A stretch of 64,000 nt of DNA from Celeribacter neptunius (GTDB taxonomy: Bacteria > Pseudomonadota > Alphaproteobacteria > Rhodobacterales > Rhodobacteraceae), in contig NZ_FORH01000001.1 of the NCBI RefSeq assembly GCF_900113955.1, positions 178,395 through 242,394 of the forward strand, written 5' to 3'. This document shows, piece after piece, positions 7,664 to 33,200 of this stretch. The position numbers and the translations under genes were made by a program. The notes beneath the pieces were generated by a model. It saw only the letters and a program-made list of their open reading frames with translations, searched no databases and had not been told where the DNA came from. Position 1 is the first letter of the stretch. Every line of letters begins with the position of its first letter.

Positions 7664-7702
7664 GCGCCACTAGGCGCGCAGAAGCTTTGACGCAGAGTAT
7701 TC

Positions 7703-7737
7703 GACAGGGCCGGGCATCGCACCGGCCCTGTCTTTTT
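7703..7737 (+). terminator. Intrinsic terminator after hflKC
   Basis: A perfect 11-base-pair stem (GACAGGGCCGG / CCGGCCCTGTC) with an 8-base loop is followed by five Ts. It stands 40 bases after the hflC stop and separates hflKC from degP. Confidence 0.93.
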
Positions 7738-7980
7738 GCCGGCATCTGGCCGGCAGCCGGCGGATGTTTTTTCGGCAGTGAGCGCTCTGGCGCGCGGCCG
7801 GAAAATTTCCCCGCCAATGCACCGGGGTTTCTCCTTGTCACACGGCCCTCACATGCTGTTGACTGGATGCGACCGACTTTGAATTGTGCTGGGACGGGCC
7901 TAAATGTAGCCCTGTGGACAGTTGTCAGCGCCAACATGGCCTTTTGCCCAAAGGCGCATCATACGGAGGATTTTGTACCG
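7738..7980 (+). other. Untranslated region upstream of degP
   Basis: Between the hflKC terminator and the degP start are about 240 bases with no convincing gene. The stretch must hold the degP promoter. I see no clear sigma-70 pair, and no sigma-E or sigma-32 consensus that I would defend. The frame is open through this stretch into degP, but the encoded peptide does not look like a protein N-terminus. Confidence 0.5.
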
Positions 7981-9474
7981 ATGACACAGGCTCGCGCCGC
8001 ATCAATCGCCCTGAGGGAGCCCCTGCGAGGCGCCCGCGTGGATTTGCGCACCTTGTTCATTGCCCTGATCGGGGCGATGGCGCTCATGTTCCAGACCATG
8101 GCGGCCGAGGCGCGGGGCGCGCCGGAAAGCTTTGCCGATCTCGCCGAAAAGGTCAGCCCGGCCGTGGTCAATATCACCACCACCACCGTGGTCGAGGCTG
8201 CGACCGATCAGCAGCCGATCGTCCCCGAGGGCTCGCCCTTCGAGGATTTCTTCCGCGATTTCATGGATCGCAACGGGCAAGGCCCGCAAGGTCCGCGTCG
8301 CTCGCAGGCGCTGGGCTCCGGTTTCGTGATTTCCGAGGATGGCTATATCGTCACCAACAACCATGTCATCGAGGGCGCCGACGAGATCGAGATCGAGTTC
8401 TACGAAGGCTTCACCCTGCCGGCGAAACTCGTGGGCACCGATCCCAAGACCGATATCGCGCTTTTGAAAGTCGAAAGCGACAAGCCGCTGACCTATGTGC
8501 CCTTCGGCGACAGCGATGCCGCCCGTGTCGGCGATTGGGTCATGGCCATGGGCAACCCGCTCGGCCAGGGTTTTTCGGTCTCCGCCGGTATCGTGTCGCA
8601 ACGCGGCCGGGCCTTGTCGGGGGCTTATGACGATTACATTCAGACCGACGCCGCCATCAACCGCGGCAATTCCGGCGGTCCGCTGTTCGACATGGCGGGC
8701 GAAGTGATCGGCGTGAACACCGCGATCCTGTCGCCCAACGGCGGCTCGATCGGCATCGGCTTCTCCATGGCGTCCAATGTCGTCTCGAAAGTCGTCGGCC
8801 AGCTCAAGGAATTCGGCGAGACCCGCCGCGGTTGGCTCGGCGTGCGGATTCAGGACGTCACCGCCGACGTGGCCGAGGCCATGGGGCTCGACGGTGCCAA
8901 GGGCGCGCTGGTGACCGATGTGCCGGACGGTCCGTCGAAGGACGCCGGCATCGAATCCGGTGACGTGATCCTGAGCTTTGACGGCACCGAAGTGACCGAC
9001 ACTCGCGCGCTGGTGCGCACGGTCGGCGAGACCGAGGTCGGCAAGGCGGTGCGCGTCGTGGTGTTCCGCGATGGCAAGACCCAAACGCTGATGGTCACTC
9101 TGGGCCGTCGTGAAGAGGCCGAGAATGTCGCCTTCCCGACCGAGGCTCCGGCCCAGCCGGAAGCCCCCGAGACCACCGAGATGCTCGGCCTGACGCTGCA
9201 GCCGCTGGATGACACGCTGCGCGAAGAGCTGGGGGTTACCGCCGGCACCACCGGTCTTGCGGTGGTCGAGGTGGACGAGAGCACCGAAGCCTTCACCAAG
9301 GGCCTGCGTGCCGGTGATGTGATCACCGAAGCCGGGCAGCAGAAGGTGGCCTCCGTCGAGGATCTGCAATCGCGGATCGATGAGGCACGCGAGGCCGGTC
9401 GCAAGACCGTGCTGCTGCTGGTGCGTCGCGCCGGCGAGCCGCGTTTCGTGGCACTGGGTGTGGCGGAGGACTGA
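7981..9474 (+). CDS. degP: Do/DegP-family periplasmic serine endopeptidase
   Basis: This is a 497-residue HtrA/Do protease that degrades or refolds damaged envelope proteins. An N-terminal export signal or anchor (about 20-42) is followed by a trypsin-like domain with an intact triad: H128 (NNHVIEG), D158 (TDIALLK) and S231 (GNSGGPLF). Two PDZ domains follow (about 275-375 and 400-495), joined by a Pro/Glu/Ala linker. GGAGG lies 11 bases before ATG 7981. Position directly behind hflKC fits a shared role in membrane-protein quality control. Contrast the gene at 29676-31475, whose related domain has lost its catalytic residues. Confidence 0.93.
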   Translation: MTQARAASIALREPLRGARVDLRTLFIALIGAMALMFQTMAAEARGAPESFADLAEKVSPAVVNITTTTVVEAATDQQPIVPEGSPFEDFFRDFMDRNGQGPQGPRRSQALGSGFVISEDGYIVTNNHVIEGADEIEIEFYEGFTLPAKLVGTDPKTDIALLKVESDKPLTYVPFGDSDAARVGDWVMAMGNPLGQGFSVSAGIVSQRGRALSGAYDDYIQTDAAINRGNSGGPLFDMAGEVIGVNTAILSPNGGSIGIGFSMASNVVSKVVGQLKEFGETRRGWLGVRIQDVTADVAEAMGLDGAKGALVTDVPDGPSKDAGIESGDVILSFDGTEVTDTRALVRTVGETEVGKAVRVVVFRDGKTQTLMVTLGRREEAENVAFPTEAPAQPEAPETTEMLGLTLQPLDDTLREELGVTAGTTGLAVVEVDESTEAFTKGLRAGDVITEAGQQKVASVEDLQSRIDEAREAGRKTVLLLVRRAGEPRFVALGVAED

Positions 9475-28083: not shown

Positions 28084-29532
28084 ATGACGGATTTGAGACC
28101 TGTTGGATATGTGATCGGCACGCTCGTCGCCCTGTTGGGGCTGACGATGGCGATCCCGATGGCGGTGGACCTGTATTTCGGGTCGGGCGAATGGCATGTG
28201 TTCTTCAGAGCCGGGGTGATCACCTTCGTGTTCGGGGCGGCTTTGACCCTGTCGACGCAGAACGCCCAGCAACAGGGGCTGTCGATCCAGCAGATGTTTC
28301 TTCTGACCACGCTGATCTGGCTGATCCTGCCGTTGTTCGGCGGTATCCCCTTCATGCTCGGGGCCACCGAGGCGAGCCTGACGGATGCGTTTTTCGAGGC
28401 GATGTCGGGGATGACCACCACCGGCTCGACGGTGTTTTCCGGGCTCGATGATCTGCCCGAGGGCGTGCTTCTGTGGCGCTCGATGCTGCAATGGTTCGGC
28501 GGTGTCGGGATCATCGTCGTGGCGATGGTGTTCCTGCCCGAACTCAAGGTCGGTGGCATGCAGGTGTTCCGCTCCGAGGCTTTCGACACCGATGGCAAGG
28601 TGCTGCCGCGCGCGGGGGAGATCGCCTCGCGCATTTCGGTGATCTACGTGGCGCTGACATTCCTGTGCTTTCTGGGCTATCTGCTTGTCGGCATGACTGT
28701 TTTCGATGCGCTGAACCATGCGCTCACGACCCTGTCAACCGGCGGATTCTCGACCCGGGATGCCTCTTTCGGGGCCTTTCAAGGGCCGGCCGAATATGTC
28801 TCGTCGCTGTTCATGATCCTCGCCAGCCTGCCGTTCGTGCGCTATGTGCAGTTGATCGCGGGCACCGCCAGACCGCTTTGGCGCGACACCCAGATCCACG
28901 CCTATCTGGCGATCATTTTCGCGCTCACCCTGTGTTTCGCCGTCTATCGTCTGCTGGTCAATCAGGACCATTTTGAACATTCCTTCCGTGAAGGCCTGTT
29001 CAATGTCACCTCGATCATCTCCGGCACCGGCTATGCCTCGGTCGATTATCAGCTCTGGGGCGCGTTTCCGGCGGTGGCGTTTTTCTTCATCGGCCTGATC
29101 GGTGGCTGTGCCGGCTCGACGGCCTGTTCGGTGAAAGTGTTCCGTTATCAGCTTTTGTGGGCCTCGATGCGGGCGCAGATCCGCAAGATCCACAGCCCCA
29201 ACGGCGTCTTTACCCCGCGCTATCAGGGCCAGCCGGTGGGCGAAGACGTGCTGTCCTCGGTGATGGCGTTTTTCTCGTTCTTCATCGTGACATTGGGCAT
29301 CACCTCGGTGCTTCTGGCGGCCACCGGGCTCGATTTCATCACCGCAGTGTCGGGTGCAGCGACGGCGCTGGCCTGTGTCGGGCCGGGGCTTGGCGATATC
29401 ATCGGGCCCTCGGGAAATTTCGAGACGCTGAATGCTCCGGCAAAATGGATATTGGCCATCGCCATGCTGATCGGGCGGCTCGAAGTCATGTCGGTCTTCG
29501 CCCTGTTCACCATCCGGTTCTGGCGCGCCTGA
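28084..29532 (+). CDS. trkH: TrkH-family potassium transporter subunit
   Basis: TrkH is the membrane pore of Trk-type potassium uptake. The 482-residue protein has the four pore-loop repeats expected: SGMTTTGST, TLSTGGFST, SIISGTGYAS and ALACVGPGLGD, each near the selectivity-filter glycine. The late GGCAGSTACSVKVFR segment is also typical. The start is ATG 28084 with no strong ribosome-binding site. The TrkA regulatory partner is not in this window. A bidirectional terminator lies 80 bases after its stop, shared with the convergent gene. Confidence 0.93.
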   Translation: MTDLRPVGYVIGTLVALLGLTMAIPMAVDLYFGSGEWHVFFRAGVITFVFGAALTLSTQNAQQQGLSIQQMFLLTTLIWLILPLFGGIPFMLGATEASLTDAFFEAMSGMTTTGSTVFSGLDDLPEGVLLWRSMLQWFGGVGIIVVAMVFLPELKVGGMQVFRSEAFDTDGKVLPRAGEIASRISVIYVALTFLCFLGYLLVGMTVFDALNHALTTLSTGGFSTRDASFGAFQGPAEYVSSLFMILASLPFVRYVQLIAGTARPLWRDTQIHAYLAIIFALTLCFAVYRLLVNQDHFEHSFREGLFNVTSIISGTGYASVDYQLWGAFPAVAFFFIGLIGGCAGSTACSVKVFRYQLLWASMRAQIRKIHSPNGVFTPRYQGQPVGEDVLSSVMAFFSFFIVTLGITSVLLAATGLDFITAVSGAATALACVGPGLGDIIGPSGNFETLNAPAKWILAIAMLIGRLEVMSVFALFTIRFWRA

Positions 29533-29675: not shown

Positions 29676-31475
29676 TCAGTTCCAGCAATTCACCAGAACC
29701 GTCAGGTCGCGGCCGATGGTGACCAGATCGGCGTCACCGGTGCTGGCCATGTCGGAGGCGGTCGCGGTCACGCCATTGGCGGACAGAAAGCCCACGAGCT
29801 TTTCCATGTCATAGGCAAAGGCGACATCCTCGGGCAGGCTGCGGCCCTGGGCCTCGGGGATGGCGCTCGTCGGCAGGAGCATGCCGATCACCGCACCGGC
29901 AGTGTTCATCAGCGGCCCGCCGGCCTCGCCCGGCAGCGTGTTCATCGCCAGACGCAGCAGGTCCTCTTCGCCCGAAAGCCCCTTGTGCTCGGCCATCAGC
30001 CCGTAATTGAGCGTCGGCGCGTCGAGACGGTCGGCATAGGCAAAGCCGGCAACCGAAACCTCGGATTGCAGACGCGGCAGATGGCTGTCGAAGGCGGCGA
30101 CGGCCAGCGGCGCCAGCGGTTCCGACGGGGTGAGAAGCGCCAGGCCATCTTCGGTGGCGGACACCGTGGCCTCGTTACCATCGGTGAGGGTGATCCGGGC
30201 GCATTGCGCCACCAGATCGGCCGAGGTCAGCACCGTGCCCGTGTCATCGACGTAAAAGCCGCTGCCGGCTTTCTCCGGGCGGCGAATGTCGAGCCCGGCC
30301 ATCAGATCGATATCCTGTTCGGCACCGTCACCATAGGCATCGGGCAAGATGCCGTCGGTCGGCGCGAAGGAGGCTTTCATTGCGTCGAGGGCCATCTGGT
30401 GACGTTTCTCGTCAGAGGGACCTTTGCCGGCGGGCCAGATCAGGGTCCAGCCCTTGACCGTGCCGTTCACCAGACGCGCCTCGGTGTGCGAGGTGATCCT
30501 TGCGTTGCTGCCGGTCAGGGTAAAGCTGTTCTTGTCGCGCGACCGCGGGCCGTCCATCGGCACGATCTCGAGCGTCTGCATGATCTCGTAGAGCCCGCCG
30601 AGCGTGGCCTCGTCGCCGGTCTGGGAGATCAGCAGCACCTGGGCGTCGGAGCCATCGGTGGCGCTGTATTTGGCAAAGGGCGGGGCGTAGCTGTCGAATT
30701 TCACCAGACCCATCGGCAGTTCGATGGCGATCCCTGCCACCTCATCGACCACGGGGCGCATGCCGAGACTGTCGATCGCGTTGCGATAGGCGGCGAGCAC
30801 TTCGCCGCGCTGACGGCTGGTCAAGACGCCGGTGGGCTCATAGCCCTTGAGCGTCTGCCACTCCGACATGGCGCGCCGCGTGCCGGGGCCAAACGCGCCG
30901 TCGATGCCGGAATTATAGGTCCCGGCAAAGCGCAGAGCGATCTGCAGCGCCTCGCGCTCAGAGCGGTCCAGCTGCCGTTCGGAAGCGCGCGCCTCGGCCG
31001 GGGTTTCATCCAATACGACCGGCGGCTGTTCGAGCGTTTCTCCCGGCGTCATCGCGGCTTCGGTCACCTGATCGGCGGCCTCTTCGCTCAGCGCGGCGGG
31101 GGGCGTGTCCGGCGCGGTGGTGGCGGCGCTCAACACCGCCAGATTGGCCCCCACCGGCCAGAACGGGCTCTGGAAGCGGGCGCCGTCGGTGATGTAGCTG
31201 TCGCCGGGGATCTGACGATCGGCGCGCAGGGCCTGACGGGCGCTTTCGGCCTCGACCTCGGTGGCATAGGGGCCAAGCGCGATGGCATGCCAGCGGCCGG
31301 GAAGGGCAAAGCCGACCACATTGGGCAGGCTCGCGGCATAGCCCTGAGCCGCTTCGGTGGCCTGTGTCAGCGTCGGCTGCGCTTCGATCTGAATCCATTG
31401 CTCGGCGTGAAGCGCGGTGGTGAGCAACAACGTGGCGGCAACCCCGATCGGGGCAACGGCGAGATACCTTTTCAT
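29676..31475 (-). CDS. Exported SPOR-like/peptidoglycan-binding protein with a degenerate trypsin-like domain
   Basis: The 599-residue protein has a signal peptide (about 1-24), an SPOR-like repeat region (about 27-97, WIQIEAQP...RWHAIALGPY), an acidic linker, a peptidoglycan-binding-1 domain (about 172-230, GIDGAFGPGTRRAMSEWQ), a middle unassigned region, and a C-terminal trypsin/HtrA-like fold (about 400-565). At the three triad positions I read D420 (TSADLV in place of TNxHVV), G444 (GLALL in place of DLALL) and A518 (GEAGGP in place of GNSGGP). All are substituted, so it is predicted inactive as a protease. ATG 31475 has AAGGG upstream. It probably acts at the cell wall as a binding protein. 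Confidence 0.82.
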   Translation of the reverse strand: MKRYLAVAPIGVAATLLLTTALHAEQWIQIEAQPTLTQATEAAQGYAASLPNVVGFALPGRWHAIALGPYATEVEAESARQALRADRQIPGDSYITDGARFQSPFWPVGANLAVLSAATTAPDTPPAALSEEAADQVTEAAMTPGETLEQPPVVLDETPAEARASERQLDRSEREALQIALRFAGTYNSGIDGAFGPGTRRAMSEWQTLKGYEPTGVLTSRQRGEVLAAYRNAIDSLGMRPVVDEVAGIAIELPMGLVKFDSYAPPFAKYSATDGSDAQVLLISQTGDEATLGGLYEIMQTLEIVPMDGPRSRDKNSFTLTGSNARITSHTEARLVNGTVKGWTLIWPAGKGPSDEKRHQMALDAMKASFAPTDGILPDAYGDGAEQDIDLMAGLDIRRPEKAGSGFYVDDTGTVLTSADLVAQCARITLTDGNEATVSATEDGLALLTPSEPLAPLAVAAFDSHLPRLQSEVSVAGFAYADRLDAPTLNYGLMAEHKGLSGEEDLLRLAMNTLPGEAGGPLMNTAGAVIGMLLPTSAIPEAQGRSLPEDVAFAYDMEKLVGFLSANGVTATASDMASTGDADLVTIGRDLTVLVNCWN

Positions 31476-31721
31476 GAAAACCCTTACTTCCTGTCGAACG
31501 GGCTTTTGCCCTTGTTCTTCGCATGTCTTTCTCATCTGGCAGAGAAAACAGGTTTCGCGCCAAGGTCAACACGGGGACGTGATCTTAGGGGCGAAATGGC
31601 GCGGTTGTGATCTAAATTCGCCGGAATGCGGCGCGCGCCGGAGCCTTTCGATTGACGCCCCTCGCGGCCTTGCCTATTGAAGTCCCGCGTTTTACTGGCT
31701 CCAGAGGCGAAAGACCCCACG

Positions 31722-32672
31722 ATGTCCGACATGTCCCAAACCGTCGAAAAACCGCGCAGCTTTCAGGAGATCATCCTGCGGCTGCAGGCCTATTGGGCCG
31801 GCAAAGGCTGTGCCGTGCTGCAGCCCTATGACATGGAAGTGGGGGCGGGGACCTTTCACCCGGCCACGACGCTGCGCTCTCTGGGCTCGACGCCCTGGGC
31901 CGCGGCCTATGTTCAACCCTCGCGCCGCCCGACCGACGGGCGCTATGGCGAGAACCCGAACCGGTTGCAGCATTACTACCAGTATCAGGTGCTGATCAAA
32001 CCCTCCCCGCCGGATCTTCAGGATCTGTACCTCGGCTCCTTGAAGGCCATCGGCATCGACACCGATCTGCACGACATCCGCTTTGTCGAGGACGACTGGG
32101 AAAGTCCGACGCTGGGGGCCTGGGGCCTCGGCTGGGAGGTCTGGTGCGATGGCATGGAAGTCAGCCAGTTCACCTATTTCCAACAGGTCGGGGGCCACGA
32201 TTGCCACCCGGTCTCGGGCGAGCTGACCTATGGTCTCGAACGCCTCGCCATGTATGTCCTGGGCATCGATCACGTCATGGACATGCCGTTCAACGATCCG
32301 CAGGCGCCGATCGCGCTGAAATACGGCGATGTGTTCCAACAGACCGAGGAAGAATATTCCCGGCACAATTTCGACGTGGCCAATACCGAGAAACTGCTCT
32401 CGGATTTCGAGAATGCCGAGAAGGAATGCCACGCCATTCTCGATCAGGAGCATATCGATCCGAAAACCGGCAAACGCATCATCATGGCCCATCCGGCCTA
32501 TGATCAATGCATCAAGGCCAGCCATATCTTCAACCTCTTGGACGCGCGCGGCGTGATCTCGGTCACCGAACGCCAGGCCTATATCGGCCGGGTGCGCACG
32601 CTGGCCAAGGCCTGTGCCGACGCGTTTGTTCTGACCACGGCGGGTGGCTACACGCCCGAGGCGGCAGAATAA
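31722..32672 (+). CDS. glyQ: Glycyl-tRNA synthetase alpha subunit
   Basis: GlyQ is the catalytic alpha subunit of the alpha2beta2 glycyl-tRNA synthetase. The 316-residue protein has the family core: [68 protein letters not shown] and [13 protein letters not shown] chose ATG 31722; ATG 31731 is an alternative. It is divergent from the pseudoprotease gene. A small membrane protein gene sits directly between glyQ and glyS (stop TAA followed at once by ATG), and the three are tightly packed as one operon. Confidence 0.95.
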
Positions 32673-33200
32673 ATGAACGGCAAACTGATCGCAGGGTTTA
32701 TCGTGGTACTCGCACTCGTCTTTGGCGCCGGCCTCTATTATTCGCAGGTCTATGCCTATTATGATCGGCTGGACGCCTCGGCGCCGGCTGCCGATATCCG
32801 TGCGACCACGTTCGAGGGGGTGACCGAGGACCTGCTGGCCGAGAATTTCGAGGGGATCGATGCCGAGACCTCGCCGATCCGGTTTCGCGCCTGTTTCATC
32901 ACGCCGCTGTCGGTGGCGATGATGAGCGAGACCTTCCAGCCCTACGTGCGCCCCGAACCGCTGATCGCGCCGAAATGGTTCGGCTGTTTCGACGCCAAAC
33001 GCATCGGCGCCGATCTCGAAGCCGGGGAGGCCGTCGCCTTTCTCGGAGAGGAAAATTTTGAATATGGCATCGACCGCGTTGTCGCCGTCTACCCGGATGG
33101 CCGCGGCTATGCCTGGAACCAGATCAACCGCTGCGGCAAGGCCGTGTTCGACGGTGATCCTGCCCCCATGGGCTGCCCGCCCGCGCCCGAAGGAAACTGA
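32673..33200 (+). CDS. Small anchored protein between glyQ and glyS (likely DUF6446)
   Basis: The 175-residue protein has one N-terminal membrane anchor (GKLIAGFIVVLALVFGAGLYY) and a periplasmic part of about 145 residues with four cysteines (RACFIT, WFGCFD, NRCGK, MGCPP), suggesting disulfides. I believe it belongs to DUF6446, found between glyQ and glyS in Rhodobacterales; function is unknown. Its start follows the glyQ stop with no spacer, and glyS begins 2 bases after its stop, so all three are co-translated. Confidence 0.8.
   Translation: MNGKLIAGFIVVLALVFGAGLYYSQVYAYYDRLDASAPAADIRATTFEGVTEDLLAENFEGIDAETSPIRFRACFITPLSVAMMSETFQPYVRPEPLIAPKWFGCFDAKRIGADLEAGEAVAFLGEENFEYGIDRVVAVYPDGRGYAWNQINRCGKAVFDGDPAPMGCPPAPEGN

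Follow-up and report, generated by a model that had tools for sequence, protein, structure and literature searches.

A lineage-wide HtrA-fold pseudoprotease joined to a peptidoglycan-binding domain in Rhodobacteraceae

A protein encoded in a 64,000-nucleotide stretch of the Celeribacter neptunius genome (hereafter, the window) carries an HtrA-fold domain without the serine-protease triad, and the same holds for all 136 full-length carriers that we sampled among the Rhodobacteraceae. The protease fold is maintained under selection while its catalytic residues are gone, which makes the domain a pseudoprotease, and a lineage-wide one; HtrA folds without catalysis are already known from MamO and PflC. 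Most of the members sampled from this large family keep the pseudoprotease, and its locus is usually the same. Automated annotation would likely call it a "trypsin-like peptidase", which is wrong as a statement of function.

The gene lies on the reverse strand, and most same-genus homologs align with it over residues 1–599. Its product is built from a signal peptide, a SPOR-like domain, a PG_binding_1 domain, a PsbP-like domain and an HtrA fold.

29676–31475, reverse strand: pseudoprotease gene, whole coding sequence (599 amino acids plus stop)
31404–31475, reverse strand: signal peptide, residues 1–24
31146–31400, reverse strand: SPOR-like domain, residues 26–110
30771–31007, reverse strand: peptidoglycan-binding domain (PG_binding_1), residues 157–235
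30366–30761, reverse strand: PsbP/Mog1-like domain, residues 239–370
29766–30284, reverse strand: HtrA-fold pseudoprotease domain, residues 398–570

The original prediction, made from the sequence alone, had named a signal peptide, a SPOR-like region, a peptidoglycan-binding domain and a C-terminal HtrA/trypsin fold. The signal peptide is present by sequence, with the cut after LHA judged by eye, and is variable across homologs (mean pairwise identity 0.22). PG_binding_1 was matched at residues 171–221 (Pfam, E = 2.5 × 10−9) and in all 78 family members scanned. The SPOR-like region gave mixed results: its predicted pLDDT is ~95 and 28 of the 78 family members in the alignment matched SPOR at E ≤ 0.01, but the window copy itself (residues 37–93, E = 0.011) scores 16.4 bits against the 21 that Pfam requires. 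The domain list had missed the PsbP-like domain altogether. This middle region has no Pfam family in the window copy, and a PDB sequence search at E up to 1 returned no match to it. Predicted alone with AF2, residues 236–386 reached a pLDDT of 93 and a pTM of 0.89; the best Foldseek hit was the PsbP structure 2xb3 (E = 4.1 × 10−5), and the predicted domain is superposable on PsbP (2vu4; VIA Z 12.2, rmsd 3.5 over 132 residues), as expected of a PsbP/Mog1-like fold.

The C-terminal fold was borne out. Trypsin_2 matched residues 404–532 above the Pfam cut-off (E = 2.3 × 10−14), and the domain superposed on DegS (2qf0) with a VIA Z of 19.8 and an rmsd of 2.3 over 160 residues at 20% identity, consistent with a trypsin-like double barrel of the S1/HtrA type. 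The protein ends 29 residues beyond this domain. It is not a Do/DegP protease: the curated family TIGR02037 scored 20 bits against a cut-off of 416.2, and there was no PDZ domain among Pfam matches at E up to 1. The sole NCBIfam matches fell far under their cut-offs, and no family name was assigned. Prediction of the whole protein from 78 aligned sequences gave a mean pLDDT of 88 and a pTM of only 0.53; the individual domains are therefore reliable and their mutual arrangement is not.

The catalytic positions of the window copy, and an intact protease encoded in the same window, are as follows.

30216–30218, reverse strand: Asp420 at the His site; Glu or Asp in 105 of 136 genomes
30144–30146, reverse strand: Gly444 at the Asp site; Gly in 133 of 136
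29922–29924, reverse strand: Ala518 at the Ser site; Ala in 104 and Ser in three of 136
7687–9474, forward strand: intact Do-type protease (H/D/S), used as a comparator in alignment with active homologs

Asp, Gly and Ala had originally been read at the His, Asp and Ser positions, and three alignments converge on this assignment. HMMER alignment to HhoA gave Asp420, Gly444 and Ala518, with clear His and Ser columns and a loose Asp column. A MAFFT alignment with active homologs gave the same residues; there, the window's Do protease, which had been named for comparison, showed H/D/S in the same columns, and of the 32 active rows 31 were H/D/S and one was H/E/S. Alignment to the active paralog family with hhalign again returned these positions. 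Thus, the His-Asp-Ser triad of S1/HtrA enzymes is missing from the window copy.

Thirty loci, namely the window's own and 29 relatives with the paralog L002 set aside, have zero triad residues left, and among 110 rows the full triad occurs in none, the His being kept in one and the Asp in one. Some genomes enter these 110 rows twice (for example, as L006 and L032). As the rows lean toward near relatives, we sampled the order evenly with 149 genomes, every one of them belonging to the Rhodobacteraceae (broad sense). Profile matches at E ≤ 1 × 10−30 were obtained in 139 of these genomes and a full-length protein in 136. No triad residue remains in 131 of the 136 proteins, a single one remains in five, and none keeps two. 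The His site is occupied by Glu (83), Asp (22), Ala (16) or other residues (15); the Asp site by Gly (133); and the Ser site by Ala (104), Val (15), Ser (3) or others (14). These counts strongly support the pseudoprotease reading and show that the loss of the triad is not a private mutation of the window copy. No conserved candidate for a triad was found at other residues, since the best His column of the domain, among the columns present in the window copy, reaches only 23 of 136. Family members with an active triad numbered zero in both the 136 genomes and the 110 rows, the active homologs falling outside the clade. Judged from its residues, the protein is almost certainly non-proteolytic.

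By the pattern of its columns, the old active site is re-conserved and not in random decay. Two more of its positions, and the two universal cysteines, are as follows.

29925–29927, reverse strand: Glu517, immediately preceding the Ser site; 133 of 136 genomes have an acidic residue, whereas 31 of 33 active rows have Asn
29952–29954, reverse strand: Arg508, ten residues ahead of the Ser site; 135 of 136 genomes have Arg, whereas 32 of 33 active rows have Gln
30201–30203, reverse strand: Cys425, putative disulfide partner of Cys597; 136 of 136 and 33 of 33 active rows
29685–29687, reverse strand: Cys597, third-last residue; 136 of 136 and 33 of 33 active rows

At the triad sites, the active rows carry His in 33 of 33 and Asp in 32 of 33. 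At every position of the GGP motif (519–521), no fewer than 127 of 129 rows agree. Cys425 and Cys597 occur in active and inactive proteins alike, which makes a structural role, as a disulfide, more likely than a catalytic one. The dN/dS of the pseudoprotease domain ranged from 0.042 to 0.217, like that of the other domains (Nei–Gojobori, 14 closest family pairs, some sharing members), and mean pairwise identity was 0.54 for this domain, 0.53 for SPOR, 0.60 for peptidoglycan binding and 0.56 for the PsbP-like domain. The fold and both cysteines are maintained under purifying selection.

The locus is marked by two neighboring genes.

31677–32672, forward strand: glyQ, divergent neighbor marking the locus (PF02091, E = 5 × 10−139; start codon as in the list of open reading frames)
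28084–29532, forward strand: trkH, convergent neighbor (PF02386, E = 1.7 × 10−53)

The pseudoprotease gene is divergent from glyQ in 77 of 80 loci, two others being rearranged and one contig ending too early, and trkH stands in the flank of at least 54 of the 80, some flanks being short. Between glyQ and glyS, a DUF6446 protein of unknown function (32673–33200, forward strand) recurs in the flank of at least 75 of the 80 loci.

The full-length protein is missing from 13 of the 149 genomes. In seven of them, six of genus g48 plus G123, a homolog at the same locus ends before the HtrA fold; the g48 copies lie between trkH and glyQ, the G123 copy adjoins glyQ, and these homologs match the SPOR, peptidoglycan-binding and PsbP-like regions of the family profile. 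Pfam analysis of one g48 member placed PG_binding_1 just under the cut-off and found no match to SPOR. The g48 proteins (L186, L187, L188, L189, L190 and L197) contain two stretches matching the SPOR part of the profile. The other six genomes yielded nothing beyond single-domain matches at E ≤ 1 × 10−6. In a tree of the peptidoglycan-binding and PsbP-like part, both domain-lacking groups fall within the inactive clade (the branches that join them have support of 98/95 and 99/85), which suggests that the HtrA-fold domain was probably lost twice; a branch of 2.69 under g48 leaves the placement of that genus unsure, and the root of this tree is weak, the outgroup middle domain being barely alignable. 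Some lineages thus run the peptidoglycan-binding protein without an HtrA-fold domain. Since it is absent from the same-locus protein in seven of 149 genomes, the domain is dispensable there for the role of the remainder, which is evidence against its being the core function of the protein.

A profile search of 240 genomes of the class recovered the full-length protein in three only, all within the family and including the window's genome, so that its absence outside the family is that of this 240-genome class sample. The matches in 29 other genomes of the class are to the C-terminal domain. We obtained loci from 27 of these 29; 24 were scorable, 23 as H/D/S and one as H/E/S, and the remaining three are fragments (L155, L164 and L167), counted as neither active nor inactive. 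These class-wide domain relatives (L142–L168) have in common one Cys near the C-terminus and another that follows the catalytic His by five residues; they seem to form a distinct active HtrA-fold group.

A paralog with intact H/D/S (L002) is encoded in the window's genome, with its peptidoglycan-binding, middle and trypsin regions in the same order as in the inactive protein. At E ≤ 1 × 10−50 such a paralog occurs in 12 of the 149 genomes, the window's included, and in seven it falls under 1 × 10−130; the count is a lower bound, a weaker paralog being present in G152. All nine scored paralog rows are H/D/S, six from the 12 sample genomes and three from outside the sample. The inactive and paralog families align in hhalign over 409 columns, from the peptidoglycan-binding domain to the C-terminus (E = 4.5 × 10−40). 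A profile comparison of the middle domain alone did not show homology between the inactive and active families (probability 0.5%, E = 0.11); the whole-protein alignment is nonetheless colinear. The two families share these three colinear regions and both cysteines, and differ in that the active paralogs retain H/D/S, carry Asn and Gln in place of the acid and Arg of the inactive family, and show a SPOR-like N-terminus in one of eight rows. This row (L170:993–2747, H/D/S) matches the SPOR part of the family profile weakly (13 bits), with no Pfam SPOR match to its N-terminus. SPOR may have been ancestral to both families.

Removing proteins identical over their C-terminal 300 residues reduced 181 proteins to 167; setting aside two that lack a protease domain and one that is too short left 164 rows. 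Alignment A2 covers 77 of the 80 loci (L093, L094 and L107 left out), and the domain alignment A3 covers 73 of the 78 rows of A2. A tree built with the triad columns removed took in one DegP, 40 of the 129 inactive rows and 32 of the 33 active rows. Its inactive rows group on a single branch (100/99), which fits a single loss of the triad; the bootstrap of this tree had yet to stabilize, a number of its branches are long, and long branches join L177 and the active side.

With a signal peptide, two peptidoglycan-binding domain types and a triad-less protease fold, the simplest mechanism is that of a wall-anchored adaptor, and we regard a peptidoglycan-anchored, non-proteolytic role of this kind in the periplasm as moderately likely. 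Once exported, the protein would be held on peptidoglycan by its SPOR-like and PG_binding_1 domains, as their domain families suggest, leaving the PsbP-like and HtrA-fold domains to bind exposed peptides or partner proteins with no cleavage. Its function would thus be binding, and its partners would reside in the envelope, possibly at the septum. Action near the septum or cell wall, as originally proposed, is plausible given the families to which SPOR and PG_binding_1 belong. More tentatively, the emptied active site, with acid at its His and pre-Ser sites and Arg in place of the Gln of active relatives, could be a new, selected recognition pocket, through which an HtrA fold anchored to the wall would sense ions or the ends of peptides and signal via the PsbP-like domain; we think this conceivable, if on the unlikely side. 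Were it true, a protease would have turned sensor, and this would be common to most of a large bacterial family.

An alternative, in which the pocket is a ligand site whose acids at the old His and pre-Ser sites bind, together with Arg508, a small ligand such as a metal or the cationic terminus of a peptide, draws on the re-conserved columns (acid at 517 in 133 of 136 and at 420 in 105, Gly444 in 133, Arg508 in 135). Arg508 sits ten residues before the old Ser, at the position that would correspond to Gln191 of DegS, and the DegS structures matched include the Q191A and R178A mutants. MamO, which binds its metal elsewhere on the fold, offers a precedent (PMC4794232). Residue 420 is non-acidic in 31 of 136 proteins, and these columns would also be accounted for by a buried salt bridge stabilizing the emptied site; we consider a ligand site unlikely. 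That the domain is instead a functionless passenger on its way out is suggested by its absence at the same locus in the six g48 genomes and G123, with the two probable losses and the long-branch caveat described above. Its dN/dS of 0.04–0.22, universal cysteines and re-conserved active-site positions speak against decay, as does the fact that 136 of 149 genomes retain it, and we judge this quite improbable.

The protein might also serve as the inactive partner of its own active paralog, comparable to the active/inactive protease pairs of magnetotactic bacteria. The window's genome does hold an intact paralog, and the two families align over most of their length, but the paralog is found in 12 of 149 genomes at the cut-off used against 136 for the inactive protein. 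Most genomes therefore have no such partner at E ≤ 1 × 10−50 (weaker ones exist, as in G152), and pairing is improbable as a general arrangement; we find the idea very doubtful, although another active HtrA protease might still fill the partner's place. Least probable is that the protein still cleaves through other residues: Trypsin_2 clears the Pfam cut-off and one triad residue survives in five of 136, but no His column exceeds the 23 of 136 given above, and the universal cysteines, being common to the active serine enzymes, more likely form a disulfide. The adaptor reading is our preferred account. Active relatives and domain-lacking versions both exist for comparison, which makes the post-catalysis role of the protease fold, and the contribution of the domain to a peptidoglycan-binding protein, testable.

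Known systems offer three parallels. In MamO of magnetotactic bacteria, an HtrA-type domain became a non-catalytic metal-binding factor (PMC4794232): as here, catalysis was lost, the domain was kept for another job, and active relatives stand beside it. MamO, however, keeps the His and Asp, has Thr for Ser, binds metal via a surface di-histidine and carries a transporter domain (PMC4794232), whereas the window protein has all three triad residues replaced and peptidoglycan-binding and PsbP-like partner domains; no comparable di-histidine was found, no domain column holding His in more than 23 of 136 proteins. PflC of Campylobacter jejuni is likewise a periplasmic HtrA relative without the triad, turned structural scaffold of the flagellum (PMC12222027). 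It combines its protease-like domain with two PDZ-like domains in the flagellar disk (PMC12222027), in contrast to the PDZ-less window protein, whose other domains are SPOR-like, PG_binding_1 and PsbP-like. DipM and its fellow degenerate LytM proteins are also envelope proteins with a dead enzyme domain, which in DipM serves to regulate hydrolases of the wall (PMC10336132); the analogy is one of principle, as the dead domain is LytM and not trypsin-like, and we claim no relation by descent.

In the open-access literature searched, we recognized no paper on the pseudoprotease family. A Dinoroseobacter vesicle SPOR protein (PMC7901474) was considered and showed no tie to the family. The probable Rhodobacter sphaeroides ortholog (L182:4487–6268) shows Glu, Gly and Ala at the triad sites. 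It lies at 450–452 kb of G154, which we take to be strain 2.4.1. RSP_1880, a peptidoglycan-binding CenR target (PMC9275681), lies near 478 kb and was rejected as this ortholog, and with it the idea that the pseudoprotease is a CenR target in R. sphaeroides. RSP_1851 is a methanethiol-forming enzyme (PMC3152904), and RSP_1852, listed among RpoH-regulon genes of unknown function (PMC3441632), may be either the R. sphaeroides ortholog or a neighbor.
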